Assembly (NCBI RefSeq): GCF_000246855.1 | Contig: NC_016609.1 | Location: 4,092,001 to 4,156,000 of the forward strand | Direction of reading: 5' to 3' | DNA from: Niastella koreensis GR20-10 | Lineage (GTDB): Bacteria > Bacteroidota > Bacteroidia > Chitinophagales > Chitinophagaceae | Length of the DNA: 64,000 nucleotides | In this document: positions 38,019 through 45,972 of the stretch, piece after piece | Numbering within the stretch: the stretch's first letter is position 1 | Layout of the letters: each line of letters opens with the position of its first letter | Translations under genes and position numbers: made by a program | The notes under the pieces: generated by a model | The model's database searches: none | Told to the model about the DNA's origin: nothing | What the model saw: only the letters and a program-made list of their open reading frames with translations

Positions 38019-38594
38019 TTAATTCCTTCCAGACATTCTTTTTCTTATGCGACTTAACGATTGAGGTTTTATTCCTATATAGGAGGCGATATAATATTGT
38101 GGGATGCGCTGTCCGGTATCCGGAAATTTAGAAAGGAAGAATTGATAGCGAAGTTCAGGCGTATCGTTGTACAGTGGTCTTACCTGGTTAATTAAGTTTA
38201 CATATACATCTTCAAGGGCCAGCCGTCCAAACCTTTCACCATACTTCACCCGCTCATAAAACAGGTGCATATTGCTATGGCTGATGAAATAAACAGTACA
38301 TGCTTCCAATGCCTGAATATTAATTGTGGATGGCGTTTGAGGCAGGAAACTGGCATAATCACAAACGAATTCACCTTCCTTATTAAAATAGCTCGTCTTT
38401 TCCTCGCCATCAATAATGGCATAATAACGAACCAGGCCCTGCTCAATAAAAAAGATGTTTTTGCAAATAGCACCAGCCTGAAGCAGGTGTTGGCCCTTTT
38501 GCAGTTTTTGTACGCGAAACAGAGACCAGATGATAGTTTCATCATCTGAAGAAAGCGGAATGTAATGTCGAATGGCTTTGAGTAGCATATCCAT
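38019..38594 (-). CDS. Crp/Fnr-family transcriptional regulator
   Basis: About 191 residues with a cyclic-nucleotide-binding-type beta-roll (KLQKGQHLLQAGAICKNIFF, IEQGLVRYYAIIDGEEKTSYFNKEGEFV) and a C-terminal helix-turn-helix (RIPQYYIASYIGIKPQSLSRIRK). This short Bacteroidota type often lacks cAMP-binding residues, so the signal is unknown. The frame opens with a TTG at 38600, but ATGs at 38594 and 38588 are better; a -7 motif at 38598-38605 overlaps the TTG. The gene is divergent from the protease-nuclease gene and a 15-base palindrome lies between them, so it may regulate itself and that gene. Confidence 0.85.
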   Translation of the reverse strand: MDMLLKAIRHYIPLSSDDETIIWSLFRVQKLQKGQHLLQAGAICKNIFFIEQGLVRYYAIIDGEEKTSYFNKEGEFVCDYASFLPQTPSTINIQALEACTVYFISHSNMHLFYERVKYGERFGRLALEDVYVNLINQVRPLYNDTPELRYQFFLSKFPDTGQRIPQYYIASYIGIKPQSLSRIRKRMSGRN

Positions 38595-38601
38595 ATCCAA
38601 A

Positions 38602-38722: not shown

Positions 38723-40990
38723 ATGGAAAATGCTTTTCAATTCCTGTCGCTTCGCGATCTGCTGGATGCCAGAGACGCCTTTCACATCCACCTCATGAAG
38801 AAAGAGAATGTTGTTGCCACCGCCCTCGGAAAATACCGGCAACGGATCCATCCTGGCACGGAGGCTAAAACTTTATTGAATACCGAAATCAGAAAAGACA
38901 GCTGGCCCTGCATTCTGGTGTTTGTGAAGCAATGGGTAACATACGACGAATTCCGGAATCATCCGGCTACAGATACTTTTGATAATTATATCCCCTCTGC
39001 TGTATACCTGCCGGATGGCCGTAAGGTACCCATCTGCGTGATAGAGGTGGCCAATGAGGCATCCGACGTAATGATGGTTACAGAAGAAGAACTCATCTTT
39101 CCATCCGACTATATCGGCGGAGGATTTCCCCTGCTTATTGAGTCACAGGGTATTGAACGGGTAGCTTCGATTGGCTGTGTTGTCTCCGACGGGAATAAAT
39201 ATTATGCATTGACGAACCGGCATGTGGCAGGAGTTCCGGGAACGATTGTTTACACGAAGGTGAAAGGCACGGTGGTGCCTATCGGGGTTAGTAGTGGTAA
39301 ATACCTTGGCAATATGCCGTTTGACAAGGTATATCCCGGCTGGACCGCTGCGAATATGATTACCAATGCAGATGTAGGGTTAATAGAGATCAATGATATC
39401 ACGTACTGGAAAACCGACATCATTGGGTTGGACAGGCTGGGAAGCCTTTACGATTTGAATATCAACAACCTTACCCTGAACCTGATTGGAACGCCGGTAA
39501 AAGCATCTGGTGCGGTGTCGGGAAAATTAGCAGGTGAAATTGCAGGTTTCTTCTATCGTTACAGGTCTGTGGGAGGAATGGATTATGTAGCCGACCTCAT
39601 GATTGGGCCCAGAGATGCGGCGCATCCGCTTAACACCCGGCATGGCGATTCGGGTACGCTTTGGGTGACGGAAGAAAATGATACAAACGGAGAAGCATTC
39701 GTAAGACCTATAGCAACCCAATGGGGAGCTCATTGCTTTGTAGAGAACGGACAGGAGCGAAAGTACACATTTGCCCTGGCTACGGGCCTGTCGATCGCGC
39801 TCAGAGAACTCGATATTGATATTGTATCCGGTTGGAACAGCGGTTCAGATTATACCTGGGGGGAAGTGGGACACTACACCATCGCCAATATTGCCGCATT
39901 GCTGGTAACAGATACGAAGCTAAAAAAGCTTATGTCCAACAACCTTGACCTCATCACTTTTGACCAGGAGATCTTAAAAAAGGACTCAACGATAAAAAAA
40001 GCACGGAAGGGCCTGAAATATACACCACTCGCCGATGTTCCCGACCTGGTATGGAAGATAAGAGGAGGAAAATTTCAGCGATCGCTGGAAAACCCCAATC
40101 ACTTTGCCGACATGGACAAAACAGACTCCAACGGACAACGGCTGTTGGACCTATGCACAGGTAAAGGTGAAGCCATGAAATTCCTCACGCCCAATGAATG
40201 GCTAAGCTACTATACAGATCCTGCAGTGCGTGATTCAAGTAAAGGAATACTCCCCTTCCGGGTTTGGCAGATCTTCCTTCAAATGGTAGAGTATGCTGCC
40301 AACGGTGATGCTACCGGATTTGTTAGCGCAGCAGGCGTTCTTGCCCATTATGTAGGTGACGCCTGTCAACCGCTACATATATCCTATATGTTTAACGGCA
40401 TCCCCACTTCCAATGGTTCCAAAAAGGGAGACGGTGTTCATGAGGCGTTTGAAGCAAAATTGGTCAATAAGTACAACAGTGAAATTATCTCTTTGGTCAA
40501 TACCCTTATTAAGCAGCCGGAATTTCAAACGCTGCTGACGTTGAAGACGGGAAAACAAGCTGCGGCAGCCACAGTTGAGCTTATGAAAGAAACGTTTGCG
40601 GCGATTCAACCTAAAACAATTGTAGATGCATTTGTGGCCAATGGCAGTAATTTCGTGGATACGTTCTGGAAAGCGAAGGGTAAAACTGCGTTGCCAAAAC
40701 TATTTGCTTCCTGCGCCTATATACTGGCTTCCATCTGGAACAGCGCCTGGGTGCTTGGGAAAGGCGGTACCAACGTTGGGAGCCTGGAGACCATTGAGCC
40801 GTCGGAAATATCCAAACTGTATGAAAGCGAGGACTTTCTGACGTCTACGAACATTAAGGGCATCGGTCAGTTCCTCAATATTAAGGGAGCACAGCCGGTA
40901 TCTATACCTACGGTGAGAAAATCAAGTGCGAAAAAGTCTGCAACCAGGAAAGGCCCAGGCAAAAAGCGAACTGCCAGTAAAACGAAGTAG
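38723..40990 (+). CDS. Fusion of trypsin-like serine protease and S1/P1-nuclease-like zinc phosphoesterase
   Basis: A 755-residue protein with no signal peptide. Residues about 140-345 carry a trypsin-like protease with the full triad: His167 in ALTNRHVAG, Asp217 in TNADVGLIEI and Ser310 in RHGDSGTLWV. From Trp379 a zinc-dependent S1/P1 nuclease or phospholipase C-like domain starts: WGEVGHYTIANIA (Trp379, His384), an Asp in PLADVPDLV, HFADMD (His460, Asp463), LAHYVGDACQPLH (His542, Asp546, His552) and GVHEAFE (His573, Glu577; HxxxE as in bacterial phospholipase C rather than HxxxD). Residues 732-755 form a Lys/Arg/Ser-rich tail like histone-type DNA-binding tails. The N-terminal 130 residues are unrecognised. 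Monocistronic, with a strong terminator behind it and a divergent Crp/Fnr gene. Role unknown; a protease-activated nuclease or lipase is the main hypothesis. Confidence 0.8.
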   Translation: MENAFQFLSLRDLLDARDAFHIHLMKKENVVATALGKYRQRIHPGTEAKTLLNTEIRKDSWPCILVFVKQWVTYDEFRNHPATDTFDNYIPSAVYLPDGRKVPICVIEVANEASDVMMVTEEELIFPSDYIGGGFPLLIESQGIERVASIGCVVSDGNKYYALTNRHVAGVPGTIVYTKVKGTVVPIGVSSGKYLGNMPFDKVYPGWTAANMITNADVGLIEINDITYWKTDIIGLDRLGSLYDLNINNLTLNLIGTPVKASGAVSGKLAGEIAGFFYRYRSVGGMDYVADLMIGPRDAAHPLNTRHGDSGTLWVTEENDTNGEAFVRPIATQWGAHCFVENGQERKYTFALATGLSIALRELDIDIVSGWNSGSDYTWGEVGHYTIANIAALLVTDTKLKKLMSNNLDLITFDQEILKKDSTIKKARKGLKYTPLADVPDLVWKIRGGKFQRSLENPNHFADMDKTDSNGQRLLDLCTGKGEAMKFLTPNEWLSYYTDPAVRDSSKGILPFRVWQIFLQMVEYAANGDATGFVSAAGVLAHYVGDACQPLHISYMFNGIPTSNGSKKGDGVHEAFEAKLVNKYNSEIISLVNTLIKQPEFQTLLTLKTGKQAAAATVELMKETFAAIQPKTIVDAFVANGSNFVDTFWKAKGKTALPKLFASCAYILASIWNSAWVLGKGGTNVGSLETIEPSEISKLYESEDFLTSTNIKGIGQFLNIKGAQPVSIPTVRKSSAKKSATRKGPGKKRTASKTK

Positions 40991-42906: not shown

Positions 42907-45900
42907 CTAGCCTGGCTGTTTCACCAGGTGCAATGTCACCATATTTCTACCCTGAACAACCTGTATAAAATAGGTACCTGGCATATAGTTGCCGCCAATT
43001 TGTAATGATCCGTTGGCCCCTGCTGTATGCGTTTCTATTACCCGGCCCGTGCTATTTATGATGCGCAAAGTAACAGGTTGTTTGTCGTTGCTACGGATAG
43101 TTATAGTGAAGTACTGGCTGGAAGGATTTGGCAACGCATGCACGTGTAAACCATTTGCGCTTTTGTCTGTCTCGCAGGATTCATTTTCATCCTTCCCATT
43201 ATGGTTGCCCACCTCTGGCCAATAGAAATGCTTTCCTTCACCCGGCACAACCACCTTAACCACTTTAGTACCTGTGTTGCCGGAGTTGTCTTTTGTCTTG
43301 ATCGATATAAAATATATTCTTTCCTTACCGCGTTCATTAAGCTCGCTCCTCAATAACAAATGGTGATCATCGAGGACAGTCCAGTCCGGACGATTCCCGG
43401 TTAGCTGCCCGTTACTTGTTACGGATAAAGAGTTATCGGCCACCCCGCAATTATCTGTTACTTTATAAAAGACCCTTACTTTTTTCATCATATGATCGGG
43501 AGGCCATAAAAAAGGCGGAATGGCAAAAGCGTCGCTGATCACCGGGCTTAAAGTATCCACCACCGTTACCACGGCCGAATCCGCTGCGCTGTTCCCATTT
43601 CTGTCGGTCACAGTTAAAGTAACTTTATTAGGCCCGGTATTTTCGCAGGTAAAGCTGCTGTGATCGAGCGCAAATTGTACCGGCCCGCAATTGACAAAGG
43701 AGCCGTTGTTCACCTCCCTCGGCATTACTTCAGCTATACCACTTTCATTCAGATACGCCGTTGTATTTTTCGCTTTTGCTACAGGCAATGGATTAATTTC
43801 CAGATTGACAATATTGTTACTGGTAACGGCCGGGTTGCTGGAAACCATTTTTATATCATACTGGTTACCGAACCTTAGGCTATCCGGCAGGGTAACGTTT
43901 ATTACTCTACCCGTGGTGGCGGTATCTGATCCAATGACTTTATTTATAAAGGAATTGTCTATATTATGATAACCCAACAGAACTGTAAAAACATTTCCCG
44001 GTTCAAATATTCCTGTTGTGGTATAGGTCACCGCTAATTTTGACCCTGAACAAACGGTTGTGGAAGCGGCGCTTATGGTAATAGCGTTATCTGCTGCCGG
44101 CGTGTATTCCCAAAAATCGTTCAGGAATTCATTGTTTATATCCCCAAACCCAAAATAGCCATTGTCTCCAATACTGAAAGCAGTGCCGTTCTGCCTGGCA
44201 CGCCCCGGGAAAGCTGCCCTTGGCGCCCATGTGTCAGAAACAGCATTATAAAGCCACAGTACATTGCTGTCGGTAAGCACGTATCCTTTATCCTTAATGT
44301 TGAAAGCATAATTAATTCCTCCGATATGTGGGGTTTGCTTTTGGGTCCAGGTATTGGTACCGGCGTTATATTCCCAAAATCCATTTCCAAAAACATATAC
44401 TTTATCGCCGGCGCCGAAACCGCGTGTCGCTCCTGCAGCGGCTGGTAAACCTGCTTGTTGCGTCCAGCTATCCTGCCCCGGATTATATTGCCAGAGATCG
44501 GAAAAGAAAGCAGGAAAATCTCCGAATCCTACATATCGATAATTAGCGTTGAAACTAATCGCACTGCCTCTTCCCATGGTAAAAGAAGACATTCTGGCCC
44601 AGCTATTGCTCATTGGATCATATTGCCAGAAATCATTGACAAGATCACTTCTCCCTGTCACATATCCCTGCCCAAGACAACCTTTACCCAAAAAATTGTA
44701 TGTATTAAATCCTGTCGTTTTCCTTCTTATGCCCCCGGGGAAATCTGCCTTCCGGGTCCAGTTACCGGTGGCCGGATCATATTCCCAGAAATCTTTTTTT
44801 GCAGCCCCGTCATACCCGGTGCCAACATACCCTTTATCATTAACACTAAATCCTGTTGCATTGGCGCGAGGCCCCCCGCCCAGGTCGGCCTTTTGCGTCC
44901 AGGCATCCATTGTTGTGTCATATTCCCAGAAATCGTTCTTAGGGCCGGATAAAGAAGAGGGCGTACCTCTATATCCTGTACCAATATATCCCTTGTTGCC
45001 TATACTAAATCCTACAGCCTGTTCCCTTAAATTGCCAGTTCCACCAACACTGGCCTTTTTAGTCCATGCATTCGTCACCGGATCATATGCCCATACATCA
45101 TTAGTACTAAAAGAAAACATATTAGACTGACCAGTGCCTACAAAGCCTGTATTTCCGATACTAAAGCCAACAGCAGCCGCTCTTGCGCCACCACCAAAAT
45201 CTGCTTTTTGGGCCCATGTATCAGTTACCGGTTCGTATTCCCAGAAATCATTGAAACTGGCTCCAATTTCATCTATGAATGCGTTGCCGAGCCCTATATA
45301 TCCTTTATTGCCTATACAGAGGCCAGTGGCAAAGCTGCGAGCCCGCCCGGAAAAAGATGCTTTTTGTGCCCAGCTATTCGTTGCCGGATCGTATTCCCAG
45401 AAATCATTGGTACTAAAACCAGTAGATATGCCACCGGAAGGATTGGCTATACCTGTGCCGATATAACCCTTAGATCCGATACTGAAACCTGCGGCGCCCG
45501 ACCTGGCGCCTCCGGGGAAATCCGCTTTGCGTGTCCAGATATTGGTGCCCGGGTCGTATTCCCAAAAATCACTGTAGCGAGCTTCAAAACCAATGATTGG
45601 TTTGAGACTATCACCCAAACCAATATAGCCTTTATTGTCTATGCTGAAGCCGGTTGCCGAGAAGCGGGCCCCTCCGGCAAAATTTGCTTTTTGCGTCCAT
45701 ACGTTGGTGACAGGATCGTATTCCCAGAAATCGCTCTGGGCTTTCCCTCCCCTGCCCGTTCCCACATATCCCTTTCCTTTGATACTGAAACTAACCGCAT
45801 TCATGCGGGTGGTGGCCGGAACACCTAATGATTGCTTTTGCTGCCAGGTATTCTCCTGGGAAAAGGTTTTTTGAGATAGACATAACAAAAAAACGGTTAC

Positions 45901-45951
45901 TGCCAGCGAGGCTATCATTTCACCAGGCTGGTACGAAATGCGTTTATTCAT
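42907..45951 (-). CDS. Secreted Kelch-repeat protein with T9SS type A sorting domain
   Basis: About 1014 residues: signal peptide (AVTVFLLCLSQKTFSQ), 12 Kelch-like units of 45-60 residues built on DFWEYDP..N.WTQKADF and FSIGNKGYIGTG (two propellers or one large one), then beta domains with an HYR-like segment (GPNKVTLTVTDRNGNSAADSAVV), and a C-terminal type A sorting domain (ALPNPSSQYFTITI ... GTYFIQVVQG) for export by T9SS. ATG 45951 (MNKRIS) and 45960 are both possible. Twelve bases separate it from the upstream DUF4907 gene. Surface-exposed; the ligand is unknown. Confidence 0.88.
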   Translation of the reverse strand: MNKRISYQPGEMIASLAVTVFLLCLSQKTFSQENTWQQKQSLGVPATTRMNAVSFSIKGKGYVGTGRGGKAQSDFWEYDPVTNVWTQKANFAGGARFSATGFSIDNKGYIGLGDSLKPIIGFEARYSDFWEYDPGTNIWTRKADFPGGARSGAAGFSIGSKGYIGTGIANPSGGISTGFSTNDFWEYDPATNSWAQKASFSGRARSFATGLCIGNKGYIGLGNAFIDEIGASFNDFWEYEPVTDTWAQKADFGGGARAAAVGFSIGNTGFVGTGQSNMFSFSTNDVWAYDPVTNAWTKKASVGGTGNLREQAVGFSIGNKGYIGTGYRGTPSSLSGPKNDFWEYDTTMDAWTQKADLGGGPRANATGFSVNDKGYVGTGYDGAAKKDFWEYDPATGNWTRKADFPGGIRRKTTGFNTYNFLGKGCLGQGYVTGRSDLVNDFWQYDPMSNSWARMSSFTMGRGSAISFNANYRYVGFGDFPAFFSDLWQYNPGQDSWTQQAGLPAAAGATRGFGAGDKVYVFGNGFWEYNAGTNTWTQKQTPHIGGINYAFNIKDKGYVLTDSNVLWLYNAVSDTWAPRAAFPGRARQNGTAFSIGDNGYFGFGDINNEFLNDFWEYTPAADNAITISAASTTVCSGSKLAVTYTTTGIFEPGNVFTVLLGYHNIDNSFINKVIGSDTATTGRVINVTLPDSLRFGNQYDIKMVSSNPAVTSNNIVNLEINPLPVAKAKNTTAYLNESGIAEVMPREVNNGSFVNCGPVQFALDHSSFTCENTGPNKVTLTVTDRNGNSAADSAVVTVVDTLSPVISDAFAIPPFLWPPDHMMKKVRVFYKVTDNCGVADNSLSVTSNGQLTGNRPDWTVLDDHHLLLRSELNERGKERIYFISIKTKDNSGNTGTKVVKVVVPGEGKHFYWPEVGNHNGKDENESCETDKSANGLHVHALPNPSSQYFTITIRSNDKQPVTLRIINSTGRVIETHTAGANGSLQIGGNYMPGTYFIQVVQGRNMVTLHLVKQPG

Positions 45952-45972
45952 ATGGCGCATAACATAAGGTTT

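Follow-up and report, generated by a model that had tools for sequence, protein, structure and literature searches.

The S1/P1 nucleases and the zinc-dependent phospholipases C (S1, P1, AtBFN2, SmNuc1 and PC-PLC) share with the protein studied here their fold, all nine metal ligands and the equivalent of Trp1. In S1 nuclease, this tryptophan occupies the free N-terminus and coordinates zinc through its main chain (PMC5201275). Listeria PC-PLC is produced as an inactive pro-form that is matured by a separate protease, Mpl, and one residue added ahead of W1 abolishes its activity (PMC10576769). Activation of a gated nuclease by a trypsin-like protease has been described for HamM/HamA and for the Avs nuclease-protease pairs, the HamA protease, as an analogous case, being activated by oligomerisation (PMC12799240). 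An N-terminal trypsin-like part and a C-terminal nuclease are found in one chain in LypC and in the "System 3" trypsin-NucA proteins, for which a proteolytic cascade was proposed (PMC13236601, PMC7159879); LypC works with an NLR-like partner and did not need its nuclease residues for lysis (PMC13236601). Finally, PADLOC-DB holds a model named "trypsin-like" (PDLC03017), which comes without description or mechanism and whose adjoining model numbers are TIR-NLR and TIR-TM.

The gene studied here lies in a 64-kb stretch of the chromosome of the soil bacterium Niastella koreensis GR20-10 (hereafter the window), at positions 38723 to 40990 of the + strand, and encodes a protein of 755 amino acids in which a NAL1-type serine protease precedes a zinc phosphoesterase of the S1/P1-PLC fold. 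All parts of this gene given below are on the same strand. PDLC03017 has the same two-part architecture: it matched all 50 diverse members of the family that we aligned (best E value 3.8e-67, one member end to end) and, in the N. koreensis protein, it covered positions 57-358 and 435-592 of its 611. The initial annotation knew of no described system with this fusion, a statement that has to be withdrawn given this model and the described trypsin-NucA proteins (PMC7159879, PMC13236601). LypC was considered as a member of the same family and rejected, as its nuclease is of the NucA type; LypC and "System 3" carry a NucA/HNH nuclease, whereas the fusion has the S1/P1 fold. In HamM/HamA, the nuclease is a separate protein of the MBL fold that is cleaved within inserted loops, and the protease carries a fused sensor; in the fusion, by contrast, the protease and the S1/P1-fold half form one chain, and the proposed cut would expose a metal ligand. 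A search of open-licence papers turned up neither an S1/P1-fold partner nor activation within one chain by exposure of a metal-binding N-terminus. The theme is known; the pair of folds and the proposed gating chemistry are new.

The open reading frame consists of 755 codons uninterrupted by stops, and the N. koreensis genome (a single contig of 9.03 Mb) contains one intact copy. A missed stop, a frameshift or an assembly artefact was ruled out by the intact frame, the copy in its own genome and the recurrence in other genomes. Since both halves match Pfam families and the full-length protein recurs in dozens of genomes, the fusion is not due to chance: a protease half and a zinc phosphoesterase half are genuinely joined in one chain. 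The description of a single-gene protein lacking a signal peptide was thus accurate, and the survey across genomes found it at full length elsewhere. The chain begins with an N-terminal domain that is also found in rice NAL1 (residues 1-130, positions 38723 to 39112; VIA alignment, with invariant SWPC-type motifs), followed by the trypsin-fold protease domain (residues 131-368, positions 39113 to 39826; matches to NAL1 and alpha-lytic protease), a linker (residues 364-378, positions 39812 to 39856), the zinc phosphoesterase domain (residues 379-718, positions 39857 to 40876) and a tail (residues 719-755, positions 40877 to 40987). Conservation was counted over 79 aligned relatives, one of which has masked bases around W379 and H384, and in a second alignment of 50 diverse members that are 31-61% identical to the N. 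koreensis protein. The AlphaFold2 model of the full-length protein, computed from the 50-row alignment, had a mean pLDDT of 88.4 and a pTM of 0.67, so that the orientation of the domains is uncertain. Structure prediction and profile searches of each half recovered a predicted NAL1-type trypsin fold and a predicted S1/P1-PLC fold.

Looking at the protease half, the Pfam family Nal1_C matched residues 216-337 (E 6.7e-7; 29.2 bits against a cut-off of 26.1) and was found at E<0.001 in 38 of the 50 members. The triad proposed from the sequence was right: His167 (positions 39221 to 39223) is kept in 78 of the 79 relatives, and Asp217 (39371 to 39373) and Ser310, within a GDSG motif (39650 to 39652), in all of them. 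A sequence search of solved structures with the N. koreensis protein returned rice NARROW LEAF 1 (NAL1), and the family profile retrieved NAL1 (E 1e-15) as well as the Arabidopsis S1/P1 endonuclease 2 (E 4e-4). NAL1 is the closest solved relative of residues 1-375, with an identical triad; the AlphaFold2 model of this part superposed on residues 86-451 of rice NAL1 (VIA) with a Z score of 34.9 and 3.3 Å over 328 residues, at 24% identity. The fused protease is thus, as modelled, specifically of the NAL1 type with an intact triad, whereas NAL1, which has a role in plant development, carries no zinc phosphoesterase domain.

We then considered the second half. Pfam S1-P1_nuclease matched residues 379-644 of the full protein (E 4.9e-6), and the isolated C-terminal domain cleared the cut-off of this family (30.1 against 29.5 bits); the full protein stayed below the cut-off of the zinc-dependent phospholipases C (PF00882, 11.8 against 26.8 bits). 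Among the 50 isolated C-terminal domains, S1-P1 matches were obtained in 44 and weak phospholipase C matches in 39. In the full-length model, residues 379-679 resembled S1 nuclease (Z 18.4) and PC-PLC (Z 17.6). Modelled alone from W379, the domain reached a pLDDT of 96.4 and nowhere fell below 70; it superposed on S1 nuclease with a Z score of 18.9 and 3.6 Å over 234 residues, and 29 S1/P1-PLC structures were listed at Z scores of 15.8-18.9, the first unrelated fold appearing at 3.8.

The zinc site had been called near-complete from the sequence. It is indeed present, and nothing is missing from it: once Asp438, which had not been listed, is counted, the three-zinc site has all nine of its ligands (W379, H384, D438, H460, H542, D546, H552, H573 and E577), and these are invariant in the 79 relatives except for the masked row. 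His384 (positions 39872 to 39874) is found in 78 of them, the remaining row being the masked one, and is also invariant in the 50-member alignment. The zinc ligand and catalytic residue Asp438 in LADVPD (40034 to 40036), His460 with Asp463 and Asp465 in HFADMD (40100 to 40117), His542, Asp546 and His552 in HYVGDACQPLH (40346 to 40378) and His573 and Glu577 in HEAFE (40439 to 40453) are each present in 79 of 79.

The nature of the substrate was approached from the same residues. Phe or Tyr at 461 and Asp463, both in 79 of 79, form the pattern of nucleobase site 1 of the S1/P1 enzymes, a motif that phospholipases C have too. The HFxDxD motif together with the last ligand Glu (D463, D465 and E577, 79/79) is PLC-like and characterises the stand-alone bacterial relatives as well, and by motif spacing the position of Lys68 in S1 nuclease is occupied by Asp441. 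Our estimate is a judgement, in which S1-P1 is the better profile, HFxDxD and the Glu ligand are PLC-like and the fold scores tie: it makes nucleic acid a somewhat probable substrate, phospholipid a rather unlikely one and other phosphoesters an improbable one. The Lys/Arg-rich tail noted at the C-terminus does exist in the N. koreensis protein, where it is disordered (pLDDT about 40) and contains 12 Lys or Arg and no Asp or Glu. It is not a family trait, being present in 26 of the 79 relatives and missing from the two nearest, and for this reason was rejected as a hallmark of nucleic-acid binding; where present, such tails would be compatible with either nucleic acid or acidic membranes as a target.

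The junction between the two halves is more important than the halves themselves, as the protease stops directly ahead of the Trp that, with its free N-terminus, completes the zinc site. Trp379 (positions 39857 to 39859) corresponds to the mature N-terminal Trp1 of the S1/P1 nucleases and PC-PLC. It is present in 78 of the 79 relatives, the 79th row being masked there, and in 50 of the 50 diverse members while the linker ahead of it varies. In the structure comparison, the residue aligned with W379 was the one that opens the mature chain in each of the 29 solved S1/P1-PLC relatives (for S1, TBN1 and SmNuc1, this numbering rests on chain ranges from 21, 26 and 27, respectively). The known members of the superfamily are secreted and have Trp1 at the mature N-terminus, whereas in the fusion the Trp is internal, behind a protease, and the signal peptide is absent. 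In nearly all of 51 stand-alone Bacteroidota relatives, the Trp directly follows a hydrophobic N-terminus resembling a signal peptide, which suggests that these enzymes are matured by signal peptidase; in the fusion, the protease ends at the place of this signal peptide. Trp379 is internal, and the uncut protein should therefore be inactive. The fusion protein is probably a cytosolic pro-enzyme that is activated when its own protease domain, or that of a sister molecule, cuts between residues 378 and 379, a cleavage that we infer. In favour of this reading, residues 377-379 were the sole internal stretch of the full-length model with a pLDDT below 50, in contrast to the domain modelled alone from W379, although this would indicate flexibility or uncertainty rather than a demonstrated distortion. 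In the same model, W379 still superposed roughly on Trp1, the aligner starting at 379; no distortion of the site is thus visible in the model, in which AlphaFold2 places no zinc, and this counts against the pro-enzyme.

At residue 378, just ahead of the Trp, 52 of the 79 relatives have Tyr and 5 have Phe, Thr is found in 19 and Ser in 2, and a single one has Arg; the residue is therefore aromatic or Thr/Ser in 78, and its class changes twice on the tree. Alone among 678 positions besides 378 itself, position 336 (39728 to 39730) switches with it in both clades: it is Gly in 95% of the aromatic group, and this Gly is lost in both Thr/Ser clades. Residue 336 is located just behind W334-G335, which we take to be the usual W215-G216 motif of the trypsin fold, and thus in the strand against which the substrate binds with its residues ahead of the cut. 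Such a joint switch is the pattern expected from co-evolution of a protease and its cut site, and this reading of the alignment is exploratory, with two events and a threshold picked after inspection; a statistical test was set aside, since two independent switches are too few for a sign test to become significant. The linker keeps its length of 15 residues in 78 of the 79 relatives, but 59% of comparable spacers are equally constant, and linker length was thus rejected as evidence of geometry.

A cytosolic pro-enzyme with a built-in activator, acting as a suicide or growth-arrest hydrolase, is to us the best explanation of this architecture, and we favour it with caution. In the uncut protein, Trp379 is internal, and the zinc site would be incomplete and the hydrolase dormant. 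A trigger, perhaps oligomerisation, would set off the protease, which would cut the flexible linker after residue 378, either within its own chain or in an adjacent copy. Trp379 would thereby be freed, and the new N-terminus would complete the zinc site; the released hydrolase would then turn on the cell itself, attacking its nucleic acid or phospholipid, the outcome being a defence-like suicide or growth arrest. The explanation builds on the folds as modelled, both active sites, the position of the Trp and the conservation of the fusion, whereas the cut, its maker, the trigger, the substrate and the role are proposed. We count HamM/HamA as a precedent, which supports the reading as a protease-gated pro-nuclease (PMC12799240). 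Put more specifically, and with less assurance, the protein may be a single-chain zymogen in which the protease makes the active site of its partner, the new N-terminus serving as catalytic metal ligand; it would be a one-gene suicide or defence effector with a wide spread among bacteria. The fused protease would then take over, within the cytosol, the task that falls to signal peptidase or a maturation protease in the secreted relatives.

The pro-enzyme could also require the cut before W379 and receive it from another protease, of a phage or of the housekeeping set, the fused protease having other substrates and causing the release indirectly. The relatives are matured by separate proteases, as presumed for signal peptidase and known for Mpl (PMC10576769), and it is only by inference that the fusion cleaves itself. 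We nevertheless consider a foreign cutter unlikely, since residue 378 switches together with the substrate strand of the fused protease and the gene is solitary. Its neighbours in the window are a divergently oriented Crp-type regulator and a convergently oriented GH18-like gene, with no close co-directional gene, in agreement with its having been described as alone in its operon. Likewise, at 58 loci a co-directional gene was found within 100 bp upstream in 3 cases and downstream in 6. No conserved partner protease emerged among the neighbours, nor any conserved operon partner, sensor or immunity gene, the neighbour clusters being mostly syntenic blocks of Bradyrhizobium. In favour of other substrates for the fused protease, and thus of a foreign cutter, NAL1 degrades other proteins in plants. 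The Crp/Fnr-type regulator (38019 to 38600, - strand) shares an intergenic region of 122 bp with the fusion gene and could control it. Elsewhere in the window, positions 42907 to 45960 (- strand) encode a Kelch-repeat protein of 1016 amino acids with a type IX secretion C-terminal sorting domain; in the same genome, G000:C1:5924568-5925404 gave a strong match to the PADLOC TIR-TM model (E 9.8e-61).

At least 11 phyla contain relatives that align over both halves at full length (31-61% identity); these phyla include Bacteroidota, Pseudomonadota, Acidobacteriota, Chloroflexota, Myxococcota, Actinomycetota, Planctomycetota, Ignavibacteriota and candidate phyla, with about 80 loci in the species-level genome collection. 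Within the same bacterial family, 4 other genomes out of 294 contain such a relative, which in G226 is divided between two frames, and another family of Bacteroidota also carries the fusion. The phyla are intermixed in places on the tree, which fits horizontal transfer without proving it. Four plasmids bear the gene, annotated as "hypothetical protein". On the conjugative plasmid p1 of Sphingobium fuliginis (L142:5783-10933), a copy is flanked on one side by a ParDE pair together with a gene annotated as anti-phage dGTPase, and on the other by a same-strand CYTH-domain gene. Several copies are broken into several frames (L144 on Neorhizobium pNgVX, L145 on Sinorhizobium B11 p1, L131, L135, L127 and L136), as expected for an accessory gene, and their number suggests frequent decay. 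The G226 relative (L005, G226:C1:5956824-5959066) lies in two overlapping frames that meet at residues 334-335 (QWGQH), either a frameshift or a real split. At L025 (G242:C13:95037-95138), 34 residues inside a 44-codon frame are 56% identical to N-terminal residues 4-37, and represent either a remnant of the fusion gene or an N-terminal motif in use elsewhere.

Some findings would favour a role outside conflict, as a housekeeping or nutrient-scavenging enzyme, perhaps exported without a signal. In Bradyrhizobium, the fusion locus looks stably inherited, and the gene was not found in the phage and viral contig collections. According to the family lists, matches to PADLOC models were no more frequent among immediate neighbours than among genes 5-7 positions off, a comparison made with our own gene calls, which are rough in GC-rich genomes. 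An enrichment of defence genes next to the fusion relative to these control genes farther out was therefore not visible; a link to retrons, suspected from the PADLOC numbering, was discarded, a crude motif scan showing no reverse-transcriptase-like frame near 80 loci. The stable Bradyrhizobium locus and the missing enrichment are unlike a typical defence gene and count against a defence-type pro-enzyme. A housekeeping role is still quite improbable: the signal peptide of the stand-alone relatives is absent, the distribution is patchy (none of the 9 other Niastella genomes has the gene), several copies are broken and the family figures in PADLOC among the defence candidates. A solitary, non-enriched context neither favours nor rules against a one-gene defence role. 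Of the roles first suggested, defence or suicide is plausible, although defence genes are not enriched nearby, and that of an exported toxin is supported neither by an export signal nor by a neighbour.

That the zinc enzyme is active uncut, as a plain bifunctional hydrolase retaining W379 for packing and its backbone carbonyl, is an improbable reading. In its favour is the full-length model, in which the domain including W379 aligns with S1 nuclease from the first residue; against it are the free N-terminal Trp main chain that binds zinc in S1 nuclease (PMC5201275) and the single residue before W1 that kills Listeria PC-PLC (PMC10576769).

If the reading as a pro-enzyme with a built-in activator is true, a family from at least 11 phyla now annotated as "hypothetical protein" would be a class with a chemically clear gate: without a free Trp N-terminus, there would be no complete zinc site. 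The fusion family also gives a bacterial setting to the NAL1 protease family, until now known from plant yield genetics.
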